Positions 1,792 through 34,437 of a stretch of DNA of 34,437 nt are shown in pieces. The stretch comes from Kutzneria sp. 744 (GTDB lineage Bacteria; Actinomycetota; Actinomycetes; Mycobacteriales; Pseudonocardiaceae): assembly GCF_000568255.1 (NCBI RefSeq), contig NZ_KK037166.1:11384946-11419382 (forward strand), written 5' to 3'. A program made the position numbers and the translations under genes. How positions within the stretch are numbered: the stretch's first letter is position 1; each line of letters starts with the position of its first letter. The notes under the pieces are model-generated. The model worked only from the letters and a program-made list of their open reading frames with translations, ran no database searches and was not told where the DNA came from.

Positions 1792-2400
1792 CCGCCCTTC
1801 GTCGGACGGACCCGCGGGGCGGCAGCACCCAACGCACCACGACGTCGCGCCCGCACCTGGGCCTCCGAACGTGCCAGCCGCACAGGACACCCTGCCCGCG
1901 CCACCAACCTTGAGGCTGTACATCACGCACGGAAGCAAATCCACACTGCCCTTCCCCGCACCGGCGCGCCGGCTCTACACCGGAGCGCGTTTCGCACCGT
2001 GCTCCCCGTGCTCTGCACCCAAGCACGCCTCACCGCACGGCGGGACCTGCACACCCAGGTCCTGATCCTGTCTCGGCACCACGGACTGATCGGCCCGGGC
2101 ACCCTGATCGAACCCTACGAGCAGCCACGCGAACGCTCCGCCGCTCTCGCGCCCCACACCCTGGCCGAGCAACTCACCGACATCGTCGACGAGCATCTGC
2201 ACGTCACGATCACGGCGTACACCACACGGGCGAACGTCGGCCTACTGAGCGCGGCGATCGCGAAGGTAAACACCGGCGCCATCCTCGCACTCGGCGCCGC
2301 GTTCGCGACCGCGCATGGAATTGGCGACCAGAACAAGGTGGTCTCCCAACTGCGGCGCGAACAGAAGCAGCGGATGGCCGAGTACGAATGGCACGTCTAG
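1784..2400 (+). pseudogene. DUF6884-like gene, broken by a -1 frameshift (module A copy)
   Basis: Two adjacent frames together spell one DUF6884-like protein. The first frame, from GTG 1784, gives LRLYITHGSK, then FPAPARRLYTGARF up to about 1993. The second, one base back, continues FRTVLPVLCTQARL, ILSRHHGLIGPGTLIEPYEQ and a C-terminal helix ending MAEYEWHV at 2400. The order GxxK, PAPA-R-LYTG-FR, ILS-HGL, PGT-I-PYEQ matches what I know of that family; its biochemical role is unknown. One base seems to be missing between about 1984 and 1993. ATG 1999 could start only a protein lacking the conserved N-terminal half. The paralogue at 27904-28514 also needs a -1 shift, about 20 bases away in alignment. 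Decay, sequence error or recoding are all possible; no canonical slippery heptamer is seen. Confidence 0.65.
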
Positions 2401-3732: not shown

Positions 3733-4761
3733 ATGCCCGACCTCGACACGATCCGCAGCGCCCGGATCTACCTGGCCCGCGTAGCAGAACCACCGGCGCC
3801 AGCGTTGGCACAGTTCGTCGCGCAATTCGGCCCCATCACCGCCGCCGAGCGGGTCCGCGCCGGCGACGTGCCCGACGACGTCGCCGCGGAGACCCGTCAC
3901 CGCCGCCGCATCACGGACGCCCGTGATGCGGACTTCTGCGGCGCCAGCAGAGGAATCCACCTCCTCATTCCCGAGCACACCGACACCTGGCCAGCCGCGG
4001 CAATGGACGCGCTGCTGCGGACAGCAGAGCATGGCGGGCCACCGCTAGGTGCTCCGCTCGCGCTGTGGGCCCGCACCGACCTCGACCCGATCGCGCTGCC
4101 GGAACTGCTGGAGAGCGGCGTCGCCCTGCTCGGCGCCCGTGCCGCAACCAGCTACGGCGAAACGGTCGCCGCCGACCTCGGCCACGACTTGGCCCAGCAG
4201 GGCATTACCGTGACCAGTGGCGCGGCGTACGGAGTCGAAGGCGCCGGCCTGCGCGGTGCCCTGATGCGCGGCGGACGCGCGGTCGCCGTGCTCGGCTGTG
4301 GCATCGACCGGGACTACCCCCACGGCCACCGCTCTCTGTTGGCCGACGTCGCCGCACACGGTGTGGTGCTCAGCGAGTACCCGCCCGGTGTGCTGCCGGC
4401 GCGCCACCGGTTCATGGCCAGGAACCGACTTCTCGCGGCCATCAGCTCGGTCGTGGTGATCGTGGAAGCCGGCGTCCGCAGCGGAAGCCTGGCTGCGGCG
4501 AACACGGCCCGCATGGTGAACCGCACGGTCATGGCGGTGCCCGGACCGATCACCTCGGCCACATCCCGCGGCACCAACCAGTTGCTCCACGACCACGCAG
4601 CCACTGCCGTGACCTCCATCAAGGACGTGCTGGACGCACACCGCGAGGCGGCCCAGCCCGGGTCCGCGAGCGTCCATACCGCACCGGCGATCCGGGCGGT
4701 TGCCACCCGGCTGCCCGCAGACGAACACGCCCAGGTGTTTGACGCCGAGCCCGTCGACTGA
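3733..4761 (+). CDS. DprA/Smf-like DNA-processing protein without a C-terminal winged helix
   Basis: This 342-residue protein carries the DprA Rossmann-like core. It has GARAATSYGE at about 134-143, GAAYGVEGAGLRGAL at about 163-177, a nucleotide-binding loop LGCGIDRDYP at 187-196, SEYPPG at 214-219, RHRFMARNRLLAAIS at 224-238 and EAGVRSGSLAAANTA at 245-259. DprA binds single-stranded DNA entering the cell and loads RecA. The first 100 residues are a degenerate N-terminal domain. The C-terminal 60 residues are low-complexity and lack the usual DML1-like winged helix. Such plasmid-borne versions are seen in actinomycetes and probably act on the element's own DNA. A strong hairpin follows the stop, and the gene seems to be a single transcription unit. 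Confidence 0.88.
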   Translation: MPDLDTIRSARIYLARVAEPPAPALAQFVAQFGPITAAERVRAGDVPDDVAAETRHRRRITDARDADFCGASRGIHLLIPEHTDTWPAAAMDALLRTAEHGGPPLGAPLALWARTDLDPIALPELLESGVALLGARAATSYGETVAADLGHDLAQQGITVTSGAAYGVEGAGLRGALMRGGRAVAVLGCGIDRDYPHGHRSLLADVAAHGVVLSEYPPGVLPARHRFMARNRLLAAISSVVVIVEAGVRSGSLAAANTARMVNRTVMAVPGPITSATSRGTNQLLHDHAATAVTSIKDVLDAHREAAQPGSASVHTAPAIRAVATRLPADEHAQVFDAEPVD

Positions 4762-5142: not shown

Positions 5143-6310
5143 ATGCCCGCAGGACCACTCCGCCCGCGCACGATCTCCGAGTACGCCGAGATGATGGACG
5201 CTGCGGCCGCCCGTACGCAGAAATTCTGCGCCGACCAACCTGCTCAGCAGGAGGTGCGTACCGCGCTACTTCGCGCCGAAAAGGACGTTCACCAAGGAGG
5301 CTGGGACGGCCAACCCAAGATGTTCTTCCTCCAACAGAACACCCGGACCCACCGCATCCGCTACACCGAGTTCGAGACGTTCCCGCGGATGCTGTCGGAG
5401 GTGCCCGGCCGGACCGCGGACATACTCGACCGGCTCGCCGAGGTCTACGAGTTCATGCGCCGCCAGGTCCATGTCCCAGCCGTCGAGATCGACCAGGCCC
5501 TGAGCGGGCTACCCCTCACCGTCCGTGACATCGTCTTTCGCGCGCGAGCCAACCCCGACGCTGATCTGTTCGACATCACCGGCCGCAACTGGCGCTTCCA
5601 CGGCGTGGGTATGGCCTGTGAGGCCTGGATGGCTCTCAACGACGGCGAGGCCACCGAAGAACTAGTGTCCTGCGCCTAAAGTTCGTTGATTAATTGTAGG
5701 ATTGACGGATGGCAGGTAGAGGCCGGCCGGTGGCCGCTGTGGTGTTAACCGACGAGGAACGCGAGACGCTTCAACGGTGGGCGCGGCGGGCGAAGTCGTC
5801 GCAGGCATTGGCACAGCGATGCCGAATCGTGCTCGGGTGCGCGGCCGGCGGATCCAATCAGGACGTCGCCGCCGAGTTGGGGATCTGGCCGCAGACGGTG
5901 GGCAAGTGGCGACGACGGTTCCTGGACAGGCGCCTGGAGGGCTTGGTGGACGAGCCACGTCCGGGCGCCCCGCGCAAGATCACCGACGAGCAGGTCGAGG
6001 AACTGGTGGTGGCCACGCTGGAACGGACCCCGGCCGATGCCACGCACTGGTCGCGGACCTCGATGGCGGCCGAGAGCGGATTGTCCAAGTCGACGGTCGG
6101 ACGGATCTGGAAGGCGTTCAACCTCAAGCCCCACCAGGTCGACACCTTCAAACTCAGCAACGATCCGCAGTTCGTCGACAAGGTCCGCGACGTCGTCGGG
6201 CTCTACCTGAATCCGCCCGACAAGGCGCTGGTCCTCTGCGTCGACGAGTTGGGTCGGACCGGGGCGCGTTGACGTCCTTACGAACGTTACGTTTCCCCGG
6301 CCCGCCCGCC

Positions 6311-6344
6311 GAACCGGACGTGCCCATTCCTGAGCATCCGGCTC
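6311..6344 (-). ncRNA. Group II intron domain V
   Basis: Read on the minus strand, the 34 nt start GAGCCGGATGC and end GCACGTCCGGTTC. This forms the classic domain V hairpin, the catalytic core helix. It lies between the RT stop and the 3' splice site, as expected. Confidence 0.92.
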
Positions 6345-6366
6345 TCCACGAGCCCGTGTCAGCGGA

Positions 6367-7800
6367 TCACTTTGCTGGTTCTGGCGTTATGACTGCCCAG
6401 GGTGTAGGGATGTTGGCCGCCCGGTATCGGTAACGGCTGACCGTCACCGTCTGGGGCTGGAACAACGTCACCTCGTCCTCCGTCGGTCGCCACCCCGGAA
6501 GGTAACGGCGCATGAGGACGGCCCACTTCGTTTTGTTGTGCCGCTTACGAATCCACCGCACTACCCGATGCCAGGCGTAATCATCGAGGTAGTGGAAGGT
6601 CGCCTTCGACACACCATGACGGAAGTAGACGCACCAACCCCGCAGCACCAAGTTGAGTTGGCGCAGCAGGGCGGCAAGTGTTGGATGCGACGACCTGCGG
6701 GTCAGCGCGCGGACCCGCCCGACGATCGAGGCCAGCGCCTTCTTCGACGGGTAGGTGTAGACCACGCGCTTGTCCGTGCCCCGCTTCCGTTTCCGCTGGA
6801 TGCGGAACCCGAGGAAGTCGAAGCCCTCATCGATGTGACAGACCCTCGTCTTGGCTGCCGACAACCGCAGGCCCATCGGGGCCAACAGTCCGGCCACCAC
6901 CTCCCGGAGGTCTTCGGCATGCCGCTTCGACCCGGACACCAGAACCACGAAATCGTCCGCGTAGCGAACGATCCGATAGGTGGCCGACCCCTTGCGGCGC
7001 GCCACGAACCGCCGATACGAGGTGCCGCTGGCCGCCCATGCCCGGGCGAAATGCTCGTCCAGGACTGACAGGGCGATGTTGGCCAGCAACGGAGACAGGA
7101 TCCCGCCTTGGGGTGTGCCGGTACTGGTGTTCCTGACCACGCCGTCCTCGCTGAGGACGCCCGCATGCAGGAACGCCTTCACCAGAGCCAGAACACGTTT
7201 GTCCCCGACCCGACCACGCACCCGGTCCATCAGGGCCGGGTGGTCGATCATGTCGAAGCACGCCTCGATGTCCCCTTCCAGGACCCACTCATACGAGCGG
7301 GACGTGAACTGGTGGATCTCCGCGATCGCATCCTGGGCCCGGCGCCGAGGACGGAAACCGTAGGAACACGGTTGGAAGTCCGCCTCGAAGATCGGCTCCA
7401 GTACCAGCTTCAGAGCCGCCTGCACGGTGCGGTCCCGCGCGGTCGGGATACCCAAGCGACGCAGATTCGCGCTGCCCGGCTTGGGGATCATCCGCTCCCG
7501 CACGGGCATCGGGTCGAACCGCCGCTCCCTGAGATCTCGCCTCAAGGTGGGCAGGAACCACTCCTCGGCGGCGAACACGGCGTCCGGACGGACACCATCC
7601 ACCCCCGCCGACCGCTTACCCTTGTTGCCCCTGACCCGCGTCCACGCCACAACGAGAACAGCCGGGTCACACACCAAATTGAACACGTCGTCGAACCGGC
7701 GACCAGGACCATCGATCGCCCACTGATGCAGCTTGGTCTGGATCCGCAGTACCCGCGCCTCGGCCTCCTCGACCGTCGGCCACAGCACACCCGTATTCAC
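6367..7800 (-). CDS. ltrA: Group II intron reverse transcriptase/maturase
   Basis: This 477-residue protein starts at a GTG (complement of 7798-7800) preceded by AGGAG at good spacing. A longer frame upstream to 8094 is Arg-rich, unconserved and overlaps intron RNA domains. Visible reverse transcriptase blocks are GDIEACFDMIDH at 176-187 (first catalytic Asp), TPQGGILSPLLANI at 229-242 and YADD at 280-283, with FDFLGF at 327-332 as the block before the thumb. The maturase (GIIM) domain has LNLVLRGWCVYFRHG at 382-396 and HYLDDYAWHRVVRW at 403-416. There is no HNH endonuclease domain. The enzyme helps the intron splice and copies it into new DNA sites. All motifs are intact, so it may be active. 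The symbol ltrA is used in the generic sense. Confidence 0.95.
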   Translation of the reverse strand: MNTGVLWPTVEEAEARVLRIQTKLHQWAIDGPGRRFDDVFNLVCDPAVLVVAWTRVRGNKGKRSAGVDGVRPDAVFAAEEWFLPTLRRDLRERRFDPMPVRERMIPKPGSANLRRLGIPTARDRTVQAALKLVLEPIFEADFQPCSYGFRPRRRAQDAIAEIHQFTSRSYEWVLEGDIEACFDMIDHPALMDRVRGRVGDKRVLALVKAFLHAGVLSEDGVVRNTSTGTPQGGILSPLLANIALSVLDEHFARAWAASGTSYRRFVARRKGSATYRIVRYADDFVVLVSGSKRHAEDLREVVAGLLAPMGLRLSAAKTRVCHIDEGFDFLGFRIQRKRKRGTDKRVVYTYPSKKALASIVGRVRALTRRSSHPTLAALLRQLNLVLRGWCVYFRHGVSKATFHYLDDYAWHRVVRWIRKRHNKTKWAVLMRRYLPGWRPTEDEVTLFQPQTVTVSRYRYRAANIPTPWAVITPEPAK

Positions 7801-9230
7801 CGGTGATCTCCTGCCCTTCCGTTCCCATCGCCGCGGACTCGCTGCCGCCCTTCGCCATGTGGCCGGCTTTCCCGACCTCGGACTACTACGACGGCTCCGC
7901 CACGCCCCGGCCCGCTCAGCCGACGACGAGCCTGCCCGCACCCGACCTGGACGGCCAGCACGCGGGACCAGCCCGGGACGCTTCCCACGTTCACCACACA
8001 CCGGTCGACGGGGTCGGTGCCCAGCTTTGCCCCTGCGACATCGCCACGAGTACGCCGCAGCCTTTCCTCGCGGCCTCCCTGCCGGCGTCTTCACCCGGCC
8101 CGAAAGTCACCCGCCCTGTCCCGGACATCCGGTCAAGACAGGTGTGCGTCGCGCTCCGGCCCGCATCCGCCAGGTTGGAGCCGGTGTATCTCTTGAGAGG
8201 CTTTAACCGCTGGTTCCTCACGTACACCTTTCCGTCTCGCTAGGTGAGCCCGAGCCGTCTGGCAGTGCCGGCCCGTCTCCTCGTTGTCAGGGCTGCTCCC
8301 ACCCTCCCCGGCGCCTCCCGGATCAGGCTGCCCTCAGCTTCATCGACCTGCTGCGACAGGACGACGGCGGAGGTCTCTCACCTCCACCCGATAGTGCAGC
8401 GCCTCGTGGCGCACGAAGTCGCAGATCCAGGCGCTGGACCGGTCCGCGCCGATGCTGCCGATGATGCCCGGCCTGCCGCAGCGCCGTACCCATGACTACA
8501 TCCGGCACGGCATCACCACCCTGTTCGCCGCGCTCGACGTGGCCAGCGGCGAGGTGATCGGCTCCATCCACCGCCGTCACCGCGCGGTGGAGTTCAAGAA
8601 GTTCCTCACCACACTGGACAAGCAGGTGCCCGCCGACCTTGACGTGCACCTAATCTGCGACAACTACACCACCCACAAACACCCCACGATCAACAAGTGG
8701 CTGGCCGCGCACCCCCGCTTCCACATGCACTTCACCCCGACCTACTCCTCCTGGCTCAACCAGGTGGAGCGATGGTTCGGCTTGCTGACCGACAAACGCC
8801 TGCGTCGAGCTGCGCACAAGTCCTTACGTGCACTGGAAAACGACATCCGCGACTGGATCACGACGTGGAACGCCGATCCCAGGCCGTTCGTGTGGACCAA
8901 GGACGCTGACGAGATCCTCGACCGCCTCGCCTCATATCTTGACCGAATTCCTGGCGCAGGACACTAGCCCGTGACCACAAACTCTATACCCACCCCCGGC
9001 GCATCGAAGTCCGCGAGGTCTACTACGCCGCCCGTGACGGCTGGACGTGGGAAGTGATGAGGGCGCGACGGACGCCGACCATCGCCCTACCCCGGCACTG
9101 CATCGTCTTTCACCGCGACAACGACTACCGCGTGATCGGTGGTGTCCCGCACGCACTCACGCGCATCTGCAACGCCATCGCCTCCAACCCGGTCCCCATC
9201 GTTCCCGCTGATGGGCCGGGCAACGAATAG

Positions 9231-9410: not shown

Positions 9411-10280
9411 ATGCGACGCACGGGTCATAGGTATCACCGTGTCGTCGGGATTCCGGAAGTGATGTCAACAATCCGGAGGGGCGCCCCAAGCAGCCAACAT
9501 CCCCCGTCCCAGCCCTCGAGGTGTGCGAGCGTCCCAGATGAACTCGCGGGATTCGAGGTATCAACAAGGTCAGCCGCAGCAGCGGTTGCGGAACTGGCGG
9601 TCAGCCCAACGAGGGCACCCCCAAGACGACCCGTGCGACTCCGCTCTTCCGACGAGTTCCGGCGAGTTCACCGAAGAGCCCCGTTCTGCCCCTGGTCCAC
9701 CTGCCCGAGCGCATGCCGACGCCCCCATCGGTAGCAGCTCCGCTCACACCTGTTCGAGCACCTGCCCCTAGAGGGGCGCGACCAGGCCCACTGACAGTCC
9801 GGAAAGAATGCTCAACCGATTCCGCAAGCCGCGCTGACCGACATCCGGATGATGGTCAAAACCTGCTCATGGGCATGCGCCCTACGGTGACACGCACGAG
9901 GGGCGCTGCCTCGCGGAGACCGTCATGGCACCGGACGACTGGTTGTCAGGCGGGGCTCTCTGCCCGTCGACTGAGACGGACCGCCGACCTGCGGCGATTC
10001 CCAGTGCAGACAAGGAACCTGACCGCCGATCCCGAGCTTCGCTTCACCAGTGGCTCGCCACCGTCGCCGCAGAGCAGGATTGCCAGGCTCCGCGACCCCG
10101 ATCTTCTCGATTGGTGGCGCGCGCATTCCCGCGACTGTCAGGCCTCACCGCGTGTGGATCACAGAGCTGACCGCCGCCATCGGGCTTCCATCTGCAGCTG
10201 TTCGCCACGGTCGTGGCAGCGCCACACCGCTGCGCCGCTGCCCGCAATAGCATGCATTTTCAACCCGAAAGGATGCCCTC
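9411..10280 (+). other. Gene-poor stretch containing an ssb fragment
   Basis: No convincing complete gene is seen. A polar Gln-rich frame (starting MNSRDSRYQQGQPQQ, about 9538-9771) has weak support. Within a long open frame, bases 10016-10047 copy 32 bases of ssb exactly. The sequence looks like a patchwork of remnants. The last 20 bases hold GAAAGGA upstream of the RNA ligase ATG. Confidence 0.45.
10016..10047 (+). repeat. 32-bp exact copy of part of ssb
   Basis: The 32 bases are identical to 31157-31188 inside the intact ssb gene. Both read [11 protein letters not shown] in their local frame (10016 is in frame with an open stretch from 9713). The match stops sharply on both sides, so this is a transplanted fragment and not a second ssb gene. 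Confidence 0.85.
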
Positions 10281-11057
10281 ATGACGTTCGCACTGAGCGC
10301 AGCGGATCTGCCATCGCTAAACTCGATGACGAAGTACCCGTCAATCCCCACGTATCACCGCCTGGACTCTTCGAATGGCAGCCTTGCTGAGCCGACCGTG
10401 CCCTTCGAAGGGGAGGTGATTGGGACTGAGAAGATCGATGGCACGAACGGTCGGATCATCACCTTCCCCGACGGCAGGTACATCATCGGGAGCAGGGAGG
10501 ACCTGCTGTATGCCAAAGGTGATCTGATCTCCAACCCCTCCCACGGGATCGTCGCTGCGCTCAAGCCCGTCGCGGACCGCATGGATCCCGACGTCCACGA
10601 CCAGATCCGAGTGCACTACCTGGAGGTATACGGCGGGAACATCGGCAGGATGGCGCGACAGTACACCGGCTCCGACCATGTCGCCGGCATCATGTTCGAC
10701 TGCGTCGTCATCAGTGACTATGTCGAACTACTGTCCTGGCCTATCGAGCGGTTCAGCCATTGGCGGGAAAACGGTGGACAGCGCTTTCTAGGCGAGAACG
10801 AACTCTGGGACGAAGCACTGAAGCACGGCTTCACCCTTGCCCCACGCCTGTTCACCCTCAACGCCACCGAGTTGCCTACGACGATCGAAGCCACGCGAGC
10901 ATGGCTGAGCGAGCGACTCCCGCGCACTCTCGTCGCGCTCGACGATGCCGCCGGCGCACAGGCAGAGGGCGTCGTACTGCGTGCCGCCGACCGCCGTCTC
11001 ATCGCCAAGGCGCGCAACCAGGACTACGACCGCACCATCCGGCGAGCCCGCAAGTAG
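10281..11057 (+). CDS. Rnl2/T4-type RNA ligase-like nucleotidyltransferase
   Basis: This 258-residue protein has the ordered motifs of covalent nucleotidyltransferase RNA ligases. Motif I is TEKIDGTNG at 49-57 with K51 as the likely AMP-accepting lysine, then GSREDLLY at 70-77, motif III LEVYGG at 114-119, FDCVVI at 139-144, motif IV AEGVVLR at 228-234 and motif V LIAKARNQDY at 240-249 with K243. Such enzymes seal nicked or broken RNA using ATP. There is no extra C-terminal domain and no adjacent kinase/phosphatase or RtcB gene, so it acts alone or with distant partners. The ATG at 10281 follows GAAAGGA at about 10 bases. Phage and plasmid versions often repair tRNA cut by host defences; that role is inferred. 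Confidence 0.9.
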   Translation: MTFALSAADLPSLNSMTKYPSIPTYHRLDSSNGSLAEPTVPFEGEVIGTEKIDGTNGRIITFPDGRYIIGSREDLLYAKGDLISNPSHGIVAALKPVADRMDPDVHDQIRVHYLEVYGGNIGRMARQYTGSDHVAGIMFDCVVISDYVELLSWPIERFSHWRENGGQRFLGENELWDEALKHGFTLAPRLFTLNATELPTTIEATRAWLSERLPRTLVALDDAAGAQAEGVVLRAADRRLIAKARNQDYDRTIRRARK

Positions 11058-11068
11058 CGACTGCAGAG

Positions 11069-11278: not shown

Positions 11279-11340
11279 GCACCGGGCCTCAGCCACACGT
11301 GCTGAGCCCCTCAACTCTCCCCATAGAAGGGAAATCTGCC

Positions 11341-12381
11341 ATGGACGCAGCCGAACACCCATCCCCGGACCGACCAGACCCCGCCCGCAGGATCACGCTC
11401 ACCGACAGCGGCTCGCTCATCGCTGCGATCCCGTCGGTGATCGGGTTCCACCCCCAAGCCTCACTTGTCGTGGTGACCCTGCAGGACGACATGATCAGTG
11501 ACGTCGTGCGGATGGACCTGGCGCCGCCACCGCAGTACGGCGCGCTCATCACCGGCCTGATCAGATCGGTACGGCAGTTCAACGGGAAGACAGCCGTGCT
11601 CGTCATCGTCAGCGACCAGCCAGATCCACGGCACGATGATCTCGTGCGGGGCGCAGTCGCCGCCCTGGCCGACATCACTGTGCCCGTGCGGCACGCCCTG
11701 TCGGCCCCATCCACCGCCGGCGGTGTGCCCTGGCGCTGCTACCTGCACGACGACTGCGAGGGTGAGGTGCCCGACAGCACCGCCACCGAACTGGCCGCCG
11801 AGATGGTCCTGGCTGGCAATGTGACCTTCCACAGCCGTGACGACCTGAACCGGCTGCTCGAACCGCCCGACGTCGACCGCGTGACCAGGATCAGCAGCCT
11901 GATCGACACAGCTGCCCAGACCGATCGCACCACCAGCGCCAAGTATATGGAACTCATTCGCGACGCCATCACCTCCGACACTCTGCCCACCACCGACGAG
12001 GACCTCGTCCGCCTCGCCCTAGCCCTGTCCGACTACCGGGTCCGCGACGCGTGCCTCGGCTACGCACTGGACCCTCAGGCCGCCACCGCCGCCGAGACGC
12101 TCTGGCTCGAAAAACACCCAAAAACCTGCCGTCCCCGGACCGCGCCGAGGCCGCAGTCCTGCTGGCCGCGTGCGCCTGTCTTCGTGGCGCCGGACGCCTT
12201 GGCCACCATCGCTGTCAATGAAGCCCGAAAGGCCCTGCGCGGTCACAATCTCGCGGACGTCCTCTACGGTGCCATCATCCACGGCGTTCCTGTCGCCCAG
12301 GTCCGGCAGCTGGTCACCAAGGCTGCCACCGACGCACGCGCCGACATCGAGACCGACGCAGACGCCGCCTCGGCGCGTTGA
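11341..12381 (+). CDS. DUF4192 protein with a frame-shifted internal segment
   Basis: The 346-residue product matches DUF4192: SLIAAIPSVIGFHPQASLVV near residue 24, VRMDLAPP near 55, VLVIVSDQ near 85, WRCYLHDDC near 131 and a helical C-terminal half. DUF4192 is common in actinomycetes and its function is not known. From about 12121 to 12195 the current frame is unlike the family (KTCRPRTAPRPQSC). The frame one base back reads NLPSPDRAEAAVLLAACACL, matching the family and the paralogue at 22479-23534 (LPAPERADAAVLLA). The original frame is again right from ALATIAVNEARKAL on. So a one-base loss near 12115-12124 (an A-rich run) is offset by a one-base gain near 12186-12196. The start is ATG 11341 after GAAGGGAAA. 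Confidence 0.85.
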   Translation: MDAAEHPSPDRPDPARRITLTDSGSLIAAIPSVIGFHPQASLVVVTLQDDMISDVVRMDLAPPPQYGALITGLIRSVRQFNGKTAVLVIVSDQPDPRHDDLVRGAVAALADITVPVRHALSAPSTAGGVPWRCYLHDDCEGEVPDSTATELAAEMVLAGNVTFHSRDDLNRLLEPPDVDRVTRISSLIDTAAQTDRTTSAKYMELIRDAITSDTLPTTDEDLVRLALALSDYRVRDACLGYALDPQAATAAETLWLEKHPKTCRPRTAPRPQSCWPRAPVFVAPDALATIAVNEARKALRGHNLADVLYGAIIHGVPVAQVRQLVTKAATDARADIETDADAASAR

Positions 12382-22478: not shown

Positions 22479-23534
22479 GTGAGCGAGCGGTTCCCCAACC
22501 ACGCCGAAGCCACAGAGAGCCGCATGCGCCCCGACATCCACTCCCTCGCGCCCGCACAGCTGCTGTGCACCCTTGCCGTCACCGAAGGCCACCACCTGCA
22601 CAGCGACATCCGTGCCCTCTACGTCCGCGGCGCCCGAACCGTCGCCGCACTGCACGAGGCAATCCCGTTCGCGCACGACTACCGACTCGCCGCCCAGACG
22701 ATCGCTCGCCGCGCCAGCACCGAACACGCTGACCAGATCCTGCTGGTGATCGTCGGCCCGCAGCTGGCCGACGCCGACCCCACACCCGCAACCCACCGAG
22801 CCCTGGTCGAGGTCACCGGTCAGGAATGCCAGCACGCCAGCGTGGGGCTGCGGGCCCTCTGGTGCGCGAACACCACACCAGGTGCGACGTGGGCCAGCTA
22901 CGACACCGACGCGCAAGGAACCGTGGCGCCGATCGAGCAGTCACCGGAATTCACTCCCGGCCAGGTCGGCCCCTTCGCACACCTCGCCGATCTCCGCCAC
23001 GCAACGCACGAGGACGACCCCGAGCACACCGCCCGACTCGGCGCCCTCATCGACGACCACCTCACCTCCGGTGAGGCCGACACCGACCCGCCCGCGATCC
23101 TCGCACGCGTGCAGCACATGCTTGACGGCCACCAGACTCCCGACACCGACGAGTGCCTGGTCGATCTCGCGGTCGGCCTGGGCGACTACCTGATCCGCGA
23201 CGCCCTGATCCACCACACCCTGCGCCGTCCGCTGGGCCGGTCCGAGGCACTGTGGCTCGCCCTCACCCGCACGCTTCCCGCACCCGAACGCGCCGACGCC
23301 GCCGTCCTGCTCGCGATCTCAGCACTGCGACGCGCCAACCGCGCGCTGTGCGACACCGCCGTGAACACCACACTCACCGCAGCCCCCAGCCACCCTCTCG
23401 CGATGCTGCTGCGCGACGCATGCGACCAGCCGGACACGTGGCCCCGTGTGATCGCCAGCCTGCACGGGATGACCGAGGCCGCGCATCAGCACCTGTCGCT
23501 GCCGGCGCCGCCGCCCGACGAGAGCCACGACTGA
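22479..23534 (+). CDS. DUF4192-like protein, second copy
   Basis: From GTG 22479 the product has 351 residues; an ATG at 22524 after AGAG is an equally plausible start (336 residues). The C-terminal half matches DUF4192 and the 11341 paralogue: LVDLAVGLGDYLIRDALIHH near 227, then SEALWLALTRTLPAPERADA and AVLLAISALRRANRALCDTA near 255-294. The N-terminal half is much more diverged and lacks the usual GFHP-SLVV block, so it may have changed role. DUF4192 function is not known. The frame is intact and shows what the broken segment in the other copy should look like. Confidence 0.7.
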   Translation: MSERFPNHAEATESRMRPDIHSLAPAQLLCTLAVTEGHHLHSDIRALYVRGARTVAALHEAIPFAHDYRLAAQTIARRASTEHADQILLVIVGPQLADADPTPATHRALVEVTGQECQHASVGLRALWCANTTPGATWASYDTDAQGTVAPIEQSPEFTPGQVGPFAHLADLRHATHEDDPEHTARLGALIDDHLTSGEADTDPPAILARVQHMLDGHQTPDTDECLVDLAVGLGDYLIRDALIHHTLRRPLGRSEALWLALTRTLPAPERADAAVLLAISALRRANRALCDTAVNTTLTAAPSHPLAMLLRDACDQPDTWPRVIASLHGMTEAAHQHLSLPAPPPDESHD

Positions 23535-27907: not shown

Positions 27908-28514
27908 CCGCCTTGGGCCGGCCAGCTCCAGGCCACCCCGTCGGCCCGCATGCCCAGCACGCGCGACCTCCGGCTCAACGCGCCACGACCGCCGACACCA
28001 CTAGGGACCCGTCGCCCACAACGCTGGCGCTCTACATCACCCATGGCGGCAAAGCCAAACTCCTGCTCCCCGCGCCGGCTACAGGCTCTATACCGGCGCT
28101 CAATTCCGCACAGTCCTTCCCGTCCTGTGCGCCCAAGCACGGCTTACCGCGCGACGCAACCTCCACGCGCGCGCGCTGATTCTCTCGCGGCACTGCGGTT
28201 TTGTCGCCCCAGGCACCCTCATCGCCCCATACGAGCAGCCTCACCCCCGGTCGGCCGCTCTCACACCACACACCGTCGCGAAGCAACTCGCGGACAACGT
28301 CGTCGGGCATAGCCACGTCACGATCCACGCGTACACCACGCGAGCGAATGTCGCGCTGCTTCGAGCAGCGGCGGCAACGCTAGCTGCCCACACGGCTGTC
28401 GAACTCGATGACGCTTTCGCCACCGCCCACGGAATCGGCTACCAGAAACAGGTGATCTCCCACCTGCGCCGTGAACAGGAGCAGCGAATGGCCGAGTACG
28501 GCTGGCACCTGTGA
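27904..28514 (+). pseudogene. DUF6884-like gene, broken by a -1 frameshift (module B copy)
   Basis: From GTG 27904 the first frame reads LALYITHGGKAKLLLPAPA to about 28075, then diverges. The frame one base back reads GYRLYTGAQFRTVLPVLCAQ, ILSRHCGFVAPGTLIAPYEQ and MAEYGWHL to TGA 28512-28514. The second frame has a TAG just upstream (in the ACTAGGGA near 28005) and no start of its own. Nucleotide alignment with 1784-2400 shows this copy has one base fewer inside the PAPA-R segment, whereas the A copy has one fewer after LYTGA. The two disruptions therefore arose separately or are independent errors. The family's function is unknown. Confidence 0.65.
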
Positions 28515-30166: not shown

Positions 30167-31123
30167 GCGGCCGCGCACGCCCGGTCCGGACTGAGGACCC
30201 CGTGGCGCGACAGGTACCACCATCTCGAGGTCACCTTGGCCCCTGACATCGGCACCGCACCAGACGCCACACCGCCTCCGGAACACCTCGTCTCATCGAG
30301 CGAGCCGTCCAACGTGATCCGCTACGCGAGATTCTTCCCGTGTGGCCACTCGGCCACCCGCACGCAGCGTCGGTCTGCTCGGGCGACAGCCGTTCGGTGA
30401 CACAAACTGAGCCAGCCCCATTCCCGATGCATCCACAACTACCCGCGGGAACTGGGCCCAACAGGACGCCGGTCGCCGACACGCTCGACGACCTGGCCAA
30501 CCACCTGGAACGTGGTCTATCCACGGCAGAGAATCCGACCCTGGCGTAGGTGACGGGACCATTGCAGCACTGCGGGCCAGCGCCGGCCGAAGCCCGCAGT
30601 TCGATGTCTTCATCCGCGATCGATCCCAGCGAAGCCGTGGATCGCCGGACGGCCGTCTGCGTGACGATGCCCCATTGTGTACACCTGACCGGGATTACGT
30701 GAGCCAAGCAACCTGGTCTCTGGCTTCGAATAGACTGTGCTGCGAAGGCGAGGAATCCTCTTATGCTGGGGTCGGATGGCGATCGACACGCCGTGATCCG
30801 CCATCACGAAGAATCGCTTCCACAGCAGGATTCACCGACGGCCGCGCCCGACGATCTCCGCAGAAAGGCCCATGGATGTTCCTGCGCGCCGTGGTGTCAT
30901 GGCGACGACATCGCCGCCACCAGCCGGGCCGCCCGCGCGTGACCTCCAGGCCTCCCAGTCGAGAGATGACGACCGGGCCGAGTCAACCGAGACCCGACCA
31001 TGCAGCACGACACATCGCACCATCAACCCCTGGGCCAGCTGACAGAATGCAGTACCGATCGAGTCACGCCAGTCGATCACCGATCTGCACGAAACCATAG
31101 ATACACATAAGAAAGGATCAGTC
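30167..31123 (+). other. Gene-poor region upstream of ssb
   Basis: Two tiny candidates exist. Frame 30427-30549 resembles the start of the previous gene. Frame 30872-31042 (MDVPARRGVMATTSPPPAGP..., 56 residues) has AGAAAGG upstream. Neither is firm. Parts of 30690-30780 and 31080-31123 are less GC-rich than the surroundings and could hold promoters, e.g. around TAGACT at 30732 or CATAGATACACATAAG just before ssb. rpsF, which normally precedes ssb in bacteria, is absent. Confidence 0.4.
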
Positions 31124-31630
31124 ATGGCTGGAGAGACGGTAATCACCGTGGTCGGAAACCTGACCGCCGATCCCGAGCTTCGCTTCACTCCCTCCGGCGC
31201 CGCTGTCGCCAGCTTCACCGTCGCGGCCACGCCGCGCACGCTGGACCGGCAGTCCGGCGAGTGGAAGGACGGCGACGCGCTGTTCATGCGCTGCAACATC
31301 TGGCGCCAGGCCGCCGAGAACGTCGCCGAGTCCCTCACCCGGGGCGCTCGCGTGATCGTGACCGGCCGGCTGCGCCAGCGGTCCTACGAGACCAAGGAAG
31401 GCGAGAAGCGCACCGTCGTGGAGCTCGAGGTCGACGAGGTTGGCCCGTCCCTGCGGTACGCCAACGCCAAGGTCAACAAGGTCCAGCGCGCAGGTGGCGG
31501 TGCTGGCGGCGGCGGTGGTGGTTTCGGCGGCGGCGGTGGCGGCAACAGCGCCCCGGTCGACGACCCGTGGGGCTCCGCGCCCCCGGCGAGCTCCGGCGGC
31601 GGCGGTTTCGCCGACGAGCCCCCGTTCTAG
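31124..31630 (+). CDS. ssb: Single-stranded DNA-binding protein
   Basis: This 168-residue protein has a full SSB OB-fold: [20 protein letters not shown] near 6, [20 protein letters not shown] near 28, [19 protein letters not shown] near 53 and [20 protein letters not shown] near 76. A Gly-rich linker follows (125-165) and then the acidic tip DEPPF that recruits partner proteins. It coats single-stranded DNA during replication and repair. The ATG follows GAAAGGA. In actinomycete chromosomes ssb sits in rpsF-ssb-rpsR-rplI; here rpsF is missing and rpsR and rplI follow only as damaged pieces, so this block looks captured from such an operon. The gene itself is intact. Confidence 0.95.
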
Positions 31631-31681
31631 ATCGCGGCCCAGCAGACCTCATTCACGTAGAAGTATCCAGGAGAAGACCCC

Positions 31682-31939
31682 ATGGCGAAGCCGCCTGTGC
31701 GCAAGCCCAAGAAGAAGGTTTGCGTTTTCTGCAAGGACAAGGCCAGCGCGAACCTGATCGACTACAAGGACACCACGCTGCTGCCCAGTGACGTCTCACC
31801 ACGGCAGTGGACGGTGATCGCGGCCTGGGAAGACGGTGAGTACGTCGTGGCCAACCCGGAGCGCGGTGAAGAACTCGCGCGAGATGGCGCTGCTGCCCTA
31901 CACCTCGACCGCTCGCTGAGAAAGGAGTCGCACCGATGA
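31682..31939 (+). pseudogene. rpsR: Chimeric rpsR: bS18 N-terminus, 26-codon insert, out-of-frame bS18 tail
   Basis: Residues 1-34 are the start of bS18 of the zinc-binding type (MAKPPVRKPKKKVCVFCKDK, then ANLIDYKDTTLL). After L34, at a codon boundary, come 78 bases (31784-31861) identical to part of the small gene at 32262-32435, in the same frame ([15 protein letters not shown]). Then bS18 3' sequence resumes at 31863 but in another frame: [18 protein letters not shown] and TGA 31917-31919. About 28 codons of the rRNA-binding core (normally RKFISDRGKI...) are missing. The open frame ends at 31939, overlapping the rplI start. A functional ribosomal protein is not expected; an intact rpsR must exist elsewhere. 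Confidence 0.9.
31784..31861 (+). repeat. 78-bp exact repeat, copy inside rpsR
   Basis: Bases 31784-31861 (CCCAGTGACG...CAACCCGGAG) are identical to 32310-32387. The flanks differ immediately on both sides. The length is 26 codons and the reading frame is the same in both contexts. Confidence 0.95.
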
Positions 31940-32152
31940 AGCTCATCCTCACCACCGATGTCAGCGGTCTCGGCGGCCCCGGCGACCTGGTCGAGGTCAA
32001 GGACGGCTACGGCCGCAACTACCTGCTGCCCCGCGGCTTCGCGATCCTCGCGACCCGTGGCGCCCAGAAGCAGGTCGCGACCATCCGTCGGGCCCAGGAG
32101 CCCCCCGGCGAGCTCCGGCGGCGGCGGTCTCGCCGACGAACCGCCCTTCTAG
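31936..32152 (+). pseudogene. rplI: Truncated rplI (bL9) joined to an ssb 3' end
   Basis: The first 55 codons (31936-32100) encode the N-terminal domain of bL9 ([46 protein letters not shown]). The start, 16 bases after the residual rpsR stop and with AAAGGAG, is that of a normal rpsR-rplI pair. At 32101 the sequence changes abruptly to an ssb 3' end (32102-32152), which in its own frame reads [13 protein letters not shown] and a TAG. The bL9 frame runs on as nonsense to 32343. The linker helix and C-terminal domain of bL9 are lost, so the product would be non-functional or only the rRNA-binding domain. Confidence 0.9.
32102..32152 (+). repeat. Second copy of the ssb 3' end
   Basis: These 51 bases match 31580-31630, the end of the intact ssb, at all but four positions. 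Three of the four changes are silent in the ssb frame (the acidic tip DEPPF is kept); the fourth turns Phe to Leu. That pattern suggests it came from a different, functional ssb gene and not from a fresh copy of the neighbour. Confidence 0.9.
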
Positions 32153-32261
32153 GTCAACGAACTGCTACAGACCCGGCCCGGACATGGCGAGCCGGGCCGG
32201 GGCTGCCGCGAACCCCAGCAACTCGCATCGCTCTGGCCAACGAGAGAGGTCGCAGATCACC

Positions 32262-32435
32262 ATGCAGGTGCAGGACATTCATAACAACTGTGGCCGCCGG
32301 TGCAGTCTTCCCAGTGACGTCTCACCACGGCAGTGGACGGTGATCGCGGCCTGGGAAGACGGTGAGTACGTCGTGGCCAACCCGGAGAACGAATTCCGGT
32401 TCGTGAAGCTCCGCGAGCTCAGGAACTTGTACTGA
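32262..32435 (+). CDS. Small unknown protein containing the 78-bp repeat
   Basis: The frame starts with ATG 32262 after a weak GAGAGG and encodes 57 residues: [16 protein letters not shown], then the 26 residues shared with the rpsR chimera ([20 protein letters not shown]...), then [15 protein letters not shown]. The repeat is bounded on both sides by unique coding sequence that reads smoothly, so this is likely the donor of the rpsR insert. It is a short beta-strand-rich peptide with no recognised family. Confidence 0.55.
32310..32387 (+). repeat. 78-bp exact repeat, copy inside the small gene
   Basis: Identical to 31784-31861. Here it encodes residues 17-42 of the 57-residue protein. The two copies lie 526 bases apart in direct orientation and could recombine. 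Confidence 0.95.
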
Positions 32436-32589
32436 CTGGCTGTGGGGCGCGTGGCTGCACGTGAGAGCGATTCCCCATGCGATCACACCCGCTGTGGACT
32501 GTTCACACACAACATGCCGGCGGTGCGCGCACTGCCGGCACGCGACGCCACGCCGAGCGTGCGACGCCACGGGTTTGGCTCACTAGCTC

Positions 32590-32964
32590 ATGGCGTACCC
32601 GCCGACGCGCGAACACGCCCGGCCCGCCGGCCGCCAGCCGGAACACGACCTGTCCGGGCACCATCTCGACCGGCGCGCTGTCCACCACGCCACCGGCGGC
32701 GAGTCGCAATCCTGTAAGCGTCCCGCGCCCGTCGCGCGCCAGGCCGCCCGATCACGTCGCGGAGAGACCTCCACCTCCGCATGGCCACTATCCACGCTCA
32801 TCAGCCTGAGCGAGCCGCTGCCGTTCCTGGATGAGTACGGCCACAACACAGCCGTCGCTGTGATCGACGGCCCGCTGCAGCCGACGGGTCACCCTCCTCA
32901 GTGGACCTATCGTGACGCTGACCCAACAGGACGACGCCTGAGCCATCACCCACGACGGCGGTGA
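32590..32964 (+). CDS. Possible small gene with protein-like C-terminal half
   Basis: The frame's second half reads well (SLSEPLPFLDEYGHNTAVAV, TGHPPQWTYRDADPTG), while the first 60 residues are Arg/Pro-rich and doubtful. The true start may lie near 32780, where no ATG or GTG with a ribosome binding site is evident. It may be the remnant of a longer gene. The rest of 32436-32911 holds nothing recognisable. Confidence 0.3.
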   Translation: MAYPPTREHARPAGRQPEHDLSGHHLDRRAVHHATGGESQSCKRPAPVARQAARSRRGETSTSAWPLSTLISLSEPLPFLDEYGHNTAVAVIDGPLQPTGHPPQWTYRDADPTGRRLSHHPRRR

Positions 32965-33259
32965 GACAGACATCGACGCGCTCGCCGAGCTGGCGAGCCA
33001 GCCCGGTGACACCGACGGGGTCACGCTGATGTTCGCCACGCTGTGGCACGCGGTTCGCTCGATCGGTGATCACCACACCATTGCCGCCGTGCGCACGGTG
33101 GAGCGGGCCTTGGTAGACGCGCTCGACGCGCTCATGATCCATCCGTTCTCATCAGGCGGCTCTCACCGCGAAACATCCAGTGTCGACGCGCGCCCACAGG
33201 TGCGGCCCGATGTCGACCCCCCTACGAGGCGGCCGCCGCACGGCCGACAGTGGCCTTGA
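32912..33259 (+). pseudogene. Possible small gene with an in-frame TGA at codon 10
   Basis: From GTG 32912 the frame reads VTLTQQDDA, a TGA (32939-32941), then an acidic, helix-rich stretch (THDGGETDIDALAELASQPG, LMFATLWHAVRSIGDHH, VRTVERALVDALDALM) to 33259. The stretch after the TGA is highly protein-like but its first ATG is only at 33029. It may be a nonsense mutation, a sequence error, or a gene starting at 33029 with chance coding upstream. Between 33260 and 33454 only the GGAGG site of the next gene is seen. Confidence 0.35.
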
Positions 33260-33454
33260 ATCGACGCTCCAGCATCGACCACTGGCAACCTTCAGATGGT
33301 GCAAGGACCGTCGTAACGGCATGTCCGCCAGCGGTCCGACGAGATCGACGGTGCGCGTGGTCGTCCCGGACGGGGTCGTGCTGTGTAGCGCCGGTGATGT
33401 TTCTCGACCTGACATCCGCAACGACCACGTACACCGCCACCGGAGGCACATTCC

Positions 33455-33844
33455 ATGAAGGACACCCTGACCATCTCCGTTCCCGCCACCACAGTGGACG
33501 CCCGACTCGCCGAGCCAGCGCCGTCGCTGGACGGGATCGGCCGCGTTACCTCCGTCGGCGTCGTCGGCGGCGCACTGCGAGTGTCGCTCACGCTCACCAA
33601 CGGCGTTGCCATCACACTCACCGAGGACGTCGGATCGATGGTGGTCGTAAACCGCGACGACGAGGTCCTGCAGCCCGACCAGGTGGCCGCGCTCGTCGAC
33701 CCGTTCGCCGACACCGACCACGTCGACCGCGAGCTCGACGCGCTGTGGCTGGCGGCGACCTCGCTCGTCGACGCGGCCACGGCTGCGGCCGTCGACGCGG
33801 TCGCGCCGACACTGATCGGCATCCTCAACGCCGGCGCCCGGTGA
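33455..33844 (+). CDS. Small acidic unknown protein upstream of NADAR, module B copy
   Basis: This 129-residue paralogue of 2582-2971 has exactly the same length. It starts MKDTLTISVPATTVDARLAE after GGAGG and keeps SLDGIGRVTSVG, GALRVSLTLTNG, DDEVLQPDQVAALV and the C-terminal VAPTLIGILNAGAR. Equal length and collinear similarity show both copies are under selection. It is followed, as in module A, by a NADAR gene. Its role may be linked to NADAR, but this is inferred from the repeated pairing. Confidence 0.82.
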   Translation: MKDTLTISVPATTVDARLAEPAPSLDGIGRVTSVGVVGGALRVSLTLTNGVAITLTEDVGSMVVVNRDDEVLQPDQVAALVDPFADTDHVDRELDALWLAATSLVDAATAAAVDAVAPTLIGILNAGAR

Positions 33845-33956
33845 CCAGCCACGGCCCGTCCGGGCAGCGCCATCGTCGTGTCCGCCTCGCGGCCCGCCGC
33901 GCCGTCCCTGCTCGCCTGCTGTGTTCGTGCATTGGCTTCCACGGAGGACCTTCCCG

Positions 33957-34437
33957 ATGACACCGTCCACACTGCCTGAGCTCCCCATCCTCGACCTGGT
34001 TGACGGCTTCGACCGCGAGTGGTGGTTCCTGTCGAACTTCGCGTTCTCACCGCTGCTGTGGGAAGGAGTCTGGTACGCGACCGCGGAGGCCGCGTTTGCC
34101 GCCGGCAAGACCGTGGATCCAGCGCTGCGACTGTGGATCTCACAGGTCGTCCCCCCGCGTGAGGCCAAGCGCCGCGGACGTCAACTGGCGCTGCGCCCGC
34201 AGTGGGACACCTCCCACCGCTATGCCGTCATGCGGCAGGTGTTGCGTGCGAAGTTCACCGACCCCGGGCTGCGGACCCGACTGATCAACACCGGCGCCGC
34301 GCTCCTGGTCGAGAGCAACACCTGGTGTGACACGCAGTGGGGGAGTTGCGTGTGTCAGCGACACCGCGCGACACCCGGCCACAACCACCTCGGCCGCATG
34401 CTGATGGCGTTGCGGGACGCGCTCACGGCCGTGCCGG
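33957..34437 (+). CDS. NADAR family protein, module B copy (cut by the window end)
   Basis: From ATG 33957 (GGAGG nine bases upstream) the frame is open to the window end, 160 residues so far. Motifs follow the family order: REWWFLSNFAF near 22, TAEAAFAAGKT near 43, REAKRRGRQLALRPQWDTSH near 64, YAVMRQVLRAKFTDPGLRTR near 85, LLVESNTWCDTQWG near 112 and HNHLGRMLMALRDAL near 140. It is the paralogue of 3059-3517 but with a longer N-terminus and loop. Known NADARs act on ADP-ribose-linked bases or riboflavin intermediates; the substrate here is unknown. Nearly the whole domain is visible, and only the last few residues can be missing. Confidence 0.88.
   Translation, partial: MTPSTLPELPILDLVDGFDREWWFLSNFAFSPLLWEGVWYATAEAAFAAGKTVDPALRLWISQVVPPREAKRRGRQLALRPQWDTSHRYAVMRQVLRAKFTDPGLRTRLINTGAALLVESNTWCDTQWGSCVCQRHRATPGHNHLGRMLMALRDALTAVP

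Follow-up and report, generated by a model that had tools for sequence, protein, structure and literature searches.

Two recombination processes are among the closest counterparts of the arrangement described here. Homology-facilitated illegitimate recombination (HFIR), as set out in PMC3240628, combines homologous recombination at one end with illegitimate joining at the other. In SPDIR, sequence copied from a distant segment takes the place of a short piece of the recipient while the donor stays intact, according to a title cited in PMC6321871 and PMC8116780; both processes are named in PMC7192050. For the genus, Kutzneria albida is covered in PMC4210621, and PMC4437187, PMC13344027 and PMC5312590 are cited as further sources. 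The DNA analyzed in this study, hereafter the window, is a 34,437-nucleotide stretch of Kutzneria sp. 744 that is exactly one contig lying between 100-N runs of the draft scaffold. Gene conversion between paralogues and misassembly at a repeat common to two loci are two further comparisons for it. SPDIR is marked by microhomology at both joints, and HFIR involves the uptake of linear DNA into a recipient.

One stretch of the window alternates between accessory and chromosome-type sequence, in the order accessory, chromosome-type, accessory block, chromosome-type, accessory (Table 1). It runs from an old-type ssb start through chromosome-type ssb, the 5' part of rpsR, the block, the 3' part of rpsR and the rplI start; another ssb tail comes next, and an orphan frame of 57 codons closes the series. 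The hybrid ssb is open over its entire 168-aa frame, and no rpsF was seen upstream of it in the window. The rplI fragment encodes an intact L9 N-terminal domain and then breaks off abruptly at ~32098. The preliminary description spoke of a captured ribosomal operon, a view that we do not share: only the whole ssb, a broken rpsR and 163 bp of rplI are there, with no rpsF before ssb. That description was also silent on the second ssb tail (32102-32155) and on the abrupt rplI end. Of 20 window frames scanned with Pfam, 11 gave hits at E ≤ 0.001, and two of the 11 fell short of the curated cut-off. Pieces of ssb occur elsewhere in the accessory DNA: at window positions 10016-10047, where ssb bases 31157-31188 have an exact copy (32/32), and on L027 at 5731-5928 (82%, with an internal stop) and 9780-9829.

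Table 1. Segments of the patchwork in the window, in order (window coordinates)
Feature	Position	Strand	Remarks
ssb start, accessory-type allele	31124..31189	+	6 bases absent from all six congeners
Remaining ssb, chromosome-type	31190..31630	+	3 window-unique bases; SSB PF00436, 106 bits
rpsR 5' part, 34 codons	31682..31783	+	102/102 identical to G005
Foreign 78-bp block inside rpsR	31784..31861	+	Identical to 32310-32387
rpsR 3' part, out of frame with 5' part	31862..31919	+	58/58 identical to G005
rplI first 163 bp	31936..32098	+	PF01281, full 47 positions, 77.6 bits; G005 similarity ends at 32100
Second ssb tail to stop codon	32102..32152 (match up to 32155)	+	91-92%; 92% over 51 bp versus 31580-31630
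57-codon orphan frame with donor block 32310-32387	32262..32435	+	Open frame within longer 32184-32435 frame

The block matches its donor at 78 of 78 positions (80 of 81 across 31781-31861), an agreement far beyond chance that bears out the exact identity first reported. A search of the whole genome with 31770-31880 hit two places only, and no third copy of the block was found. Measured against the congener G005, 84 bp of rpsR between CTGCTG and GCGGTG are swapped for 79; with the last C counted as native, 83 native bp are replaced by 78 foreign bases. No hidden homology is indicated between the block and the rpsR sequence it replaces, since 296 of 1,000 shuffles reach the same score. The first base of the block begins codon 35 in rpsR and codon 17 in the 57-codon frame. 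Both phases are kept at the entry, and to this extent the preliminary description was right to call the piece in-frame. At the exit the phase is lost: rpsR resumes one base off (CGC GGT GAA versus native GCG GTG AAG), so the C-terminus of S18 is out of frame and S18 is broken. The fused open frame, 85 codons long, extends to 31939. Pfam gives nothing for its product at E ≤ 1, and the alignment with TIGR00165, over residues 9-41, scores 22 bits, below the cut-off of 38.75; the above-cut-off S18 domain expected of a functional bS18 is therefore lacking. A mobile or programmed coding cassette, with an 85-aa fusion that is made and used, is in our view a very improbable account of the block. The entry in phase in both genes and the open frame of 85 codons would suit such a cassette, but a common entry phase has a one-in-three chance, and the shifted exit, the lack of a Pfam S18 match and the lack of a third copy in this genome all speak against it. 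So does the lack of any inverted repeat of at least 20 bp in 31000-33200, which agrees with the earlier remark that no mobile-element ends are visible.

The usual chromosomal locus, at 5.92 Mb, retains most of rpsF, the 3' end of rplI and dnaB, and N covers ssb, rpsR and most of rplI. This run of N is 1851 long where G005 has 1249 bp, and is presumably an assembly gap. A Pfam S18 search of the genome returned one match, a gene that lacks the CxxC seen in the normal protein; the adjoining frames we take to be bL28, bL33 and bS14, and the whole presumably a zinc-independent set. Other N runs in the chromosome sample are of several sizes, from 100 to 1215. In the last 396 kb, which contain the window, 18 of 18 are 100, and contig order there may therefore be arbitrary. 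On G005, 18 of the 23 N runs in the chromosome sample could be placed (five could not), 15 of them with more than 40 bp to test, and among these ssb-rpsR-rplI alone has its sequence on accessory contigs. The matching normal locus is thus missing from the assembly, as a misassembly at a shared repeat would have it.

We consider the patchwork rpsR most likely an assembly artefact, a reading in which we place moderate confidence. Reads of the chromosomal rpsF-ssb-rpsR-rplI operon would have been piled together, at the common ssb sequence, with reads of an accessory locus in which the 57-codon frame comes after another ssb; the pile-up itself we infer. The consensus would then pass from the accessory ssb into the chromosomal operon, take 78 bases from accessory reads lying equally far from the ssb stop codon, return to rpsR and finally meet the accessory ssb tail at a joint that has no overlap, with the normal locus left as N. 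An artefact is favored by the N at the normal locus, by other silent faults in the assembly, by a near-exact register and by the lack of shared bases at two of the three joints, and on the same grounds the evidence leans to faulty assembly over the shuffling of coding segments first proposed. If this is correct, it would be a mistake to say that this genome has captured a ribosomal operon or lost rpsR. The likeness to a misassembly at a repeat common to two loci lies in one locus being N with its sequence in the contig of the other, in joints without homology and in consensus faults close by; two clean in-register switches 78 bp apart are unusual for such a fault.

Register was counted from where each ssb stop codon ends (31630 and 32152), with G005 standing for native rpsR. 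By this count the block is entered at base 154 in rpsR versus base 158 in the donor, and rpsR picks up again at its base 237, which would correspond to base 236 in the donor. So close a register, which was noticed after the fact, has by a rough hand estimate a chance of about one in several hundred. A read pile-up aligned at ssb predicts the register; a copying polymerase without side-by-side duplexes does not. Shared bases number one at the block entry (a common C amid an imperfect CT.C.CA) and none at the exit, which was judged against the rpsR of the congeners since our own reading there is N; none are clear at the join of rplI to the ssb tail.

All six Kutzneria congeners compared (G001-G006, of which G006 is Kutzneria sp. 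CA-103260) match the ssb-rpsR stretch. At the equivalent place G005 has an ordinary 80-aa S18, and a MAFFT alignment shows rpsR uninterrupted in G005 and G001, the two congeners supplied in the same orientation. Native sequence is present at both block joints in five of the six, and in the sixth the entry site alone was found. The same patchwork was found in none of the six congeners. Similarity to the congeners' operon starts at the ssb start codon and stops at 32100. Across 482 compared positions of ssb, nine bases occur in none of the six congeners, six of them in the first 66 bp and three beyond (5/64 and 3/417 when counted in pieces). Window-unique bases number 0/102 and 0/58 in the two parts of rpsR and 2/163 in the rplI start; the flanks at our own normal locus have 2/230, 0/78 and 3/275. 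With so few unique bases, the stretch beyond the first 66 bp resembles a normal Kutzneria operon and not an old pseudogene. The two rpsR counts of zero indicate either a very fresh copy or the normal gene's own sequence. Of the preliminary description, the exact copy and its donor hold. As for the accessory flanks, 29400-31200 matches the six congeners in the ssb end only, and for 32100-34437 the similarity is limited to the ssb tail plus some short, weak pieces; with matches so confined, an uninterrupted accessory allele was not found among them.

Other faults are present in this assembly. Beside the N run, conserved codons of our dnaB give way to T-runs with small insertions and deletions, and A20, C10 and G9 junk follows one N run. 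A 302-bp exact duplicate, single in G005, terminates at an N run. Comparison with G005 over 364 kb gave six duplication-type joints, the reverse comparison two, and G006 against G005, a small control, none in 74 kb. Two of our joints (G000:C1:5877703-5877803 and 5906154-5906310) have 53- and 51-bp duplications around 99 and 155 bp of filler with GC of 0.55 and 0.50, at places where the G005 frame is open end to end; they look like silent assembly faults. Not all of the survey favors an artefact. Replaced-sequence patches show no excess (30 in 356 kb here versus 8 in 72 kb for G006), and the fillers at the two faulty chromosomal joints are not copies of neighboring genes as far as the two sequences show. 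Four of the 30 patches match elsewhere in our sequence examined, and the matches listed, up to three per patch, are all situated in different stretches of the chromosome; this assembly therefore has no general habit of filling in wrongly from a local copy. A joint made without overlap is odd for an assembler as well.

A real and very recent event, in which copying switched templates between the chromosome and accessory DNA, is in our view a serious possibility but a less probable one. An accessory ssb paralogue would have paired with chromosomal ssb. Repair synthesis would have copied the chromosome past rpsR as far as rplI, with an excursion of 78 bases onto the accessory strand that lay alongside at equal distance; after its return it would have been terminated at the accessory ssb tail by an illegitimate join, leaving a hybrid ssb with rpsR and rplI debris. 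Such an event would be like HFIR with one short-patch template switch. It would account for the accessory start and chromosome-type body of ssb and for the barely diverged rpsR and rplI parts; pieces of ssb are indeed scattered through the accessory DNA, and a near-identical second copy would itself produce an N run at the normal locus. Microhomology is nevertheless absent at two of the three joints, the assembly has silent faults elsewhere, and the patchwork recurs in none of the six congeners. A more specific form of the event, somewhat less probable still, is that a repair polymerase hopped between unrelated strands lying side by side beyond the ssb homology, in register within a few bases, and copied 78 bases before it hopped back. 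In that case the locus would preserve, as a natural fossil, a template switch made in register under the guidance of upstream pairing and not of microhomology. A real event would in any case be a very fresh record of repair-polymerase switching between accessory DNA and chromosome, with a register that tells how the duplexes lay.

Set beside the described processes, the locus resembles HFIR in its entry within homologous ssb, where accessory sequence gives way to chromosome-type sequence after 31189, and, if the assembly is right, in an exit at a homology-free joint, that of rplI to the ssb tail at ~32098. It differs in the extra 78-bp switch mid-way, and no donor molecule or event was observed. 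With SPDIR it shares, again if the assembly is right, the replacement of recipient DNA by a short intragenomic segment whose donor at 32310-32387 is intact; unlike SPDIR, it has no microhomology at the exit, and its donor, in register with the target, lies at a distance of just 526 bp. The ssb body could be explained by gene conversion between paralogues, but rpsR, rplI and the block could not, for they have no homologous target in the accessory locus.

Gene conversion would also explain the body of a gene on another accessory contig that we take to be ino1, at about 10499-11567 of L064 (G000:C1:11468499-11469567). It is identical at 1059 of 1069 positions to a chromosomal copy at 5.935 Mb, ~13 kb from rpsF; the match spans codon 3 to the last codons and stops at the gene edges, and nine of the 10 differences are synonymous by reading. 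Such a pattern would be expected if an accessory paralogue had recently undergone gene conversion, and we read it as recent conversion or capture. By this example, an accessory contig can carry a genuine recent copy of chromosome type, which favors a real event at ssb-rpsR and tells against an artefact. A broad trade of genes between chromosome and accessory DNA was considered and rejected: when ~1.6 Mb of our chromosome, in four stretches, was compared with the accessory contigs (matches of at least 88% and at least 40 bp), the matches were ino1, 811 and 1511 bp, 369 bp, and 87 and 52 bp. The 811-bp and 1511-bp matches meet one and the same accessory place, and our guess is that they represent a mobile element.

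The 57-codon frame appears, by sequence comparison, to have no convincing relative among the sets searched. In the order, three of 397 genomes matched at E ≤ 0.01, our own and two weak ones; the first weak match falls within a frame on the strand opposite a long frame, presumably mfd, the second in one of several overlapping frames, and both were judged chance. Within the genus one of seven genomes matched, our own alone, and in the phylum two of 396, our own and an unconvincing weak match at the end of a small contig. The one IMG/VR match, in a frame overlapping a longer one, was also judged chance. Searches of plasmids, phages and genome_contigs gave nothing (our own genome may be absent from these sets), nor did Pfam and NCBIfam.

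Several other features were recorded along the way. The dnaB of G005 contains ~1.24 kb that is absent from our own dnaB at one point (L030 8625-9862 versus L026 ~3759-3765); our guess is that this is a candidate intein. At window positions 5709-8967 there is a split transposase, with a helix-turn-helix part (5709-6272) and a DDE_3 part (8452-8967), and between the halves, on the opposite strand, lies a group II intron type reverse transcriptase with a maturase domain. The accessory DNA also holds paralogous pairs, at window positions 1915-2394 and 28029-28508, at 10267-11061 and in the stretch after the window, and at 11281-12378 and 22479-23531; the pairs include two DUF4192 genes and two RNA-ligase-like stretches.
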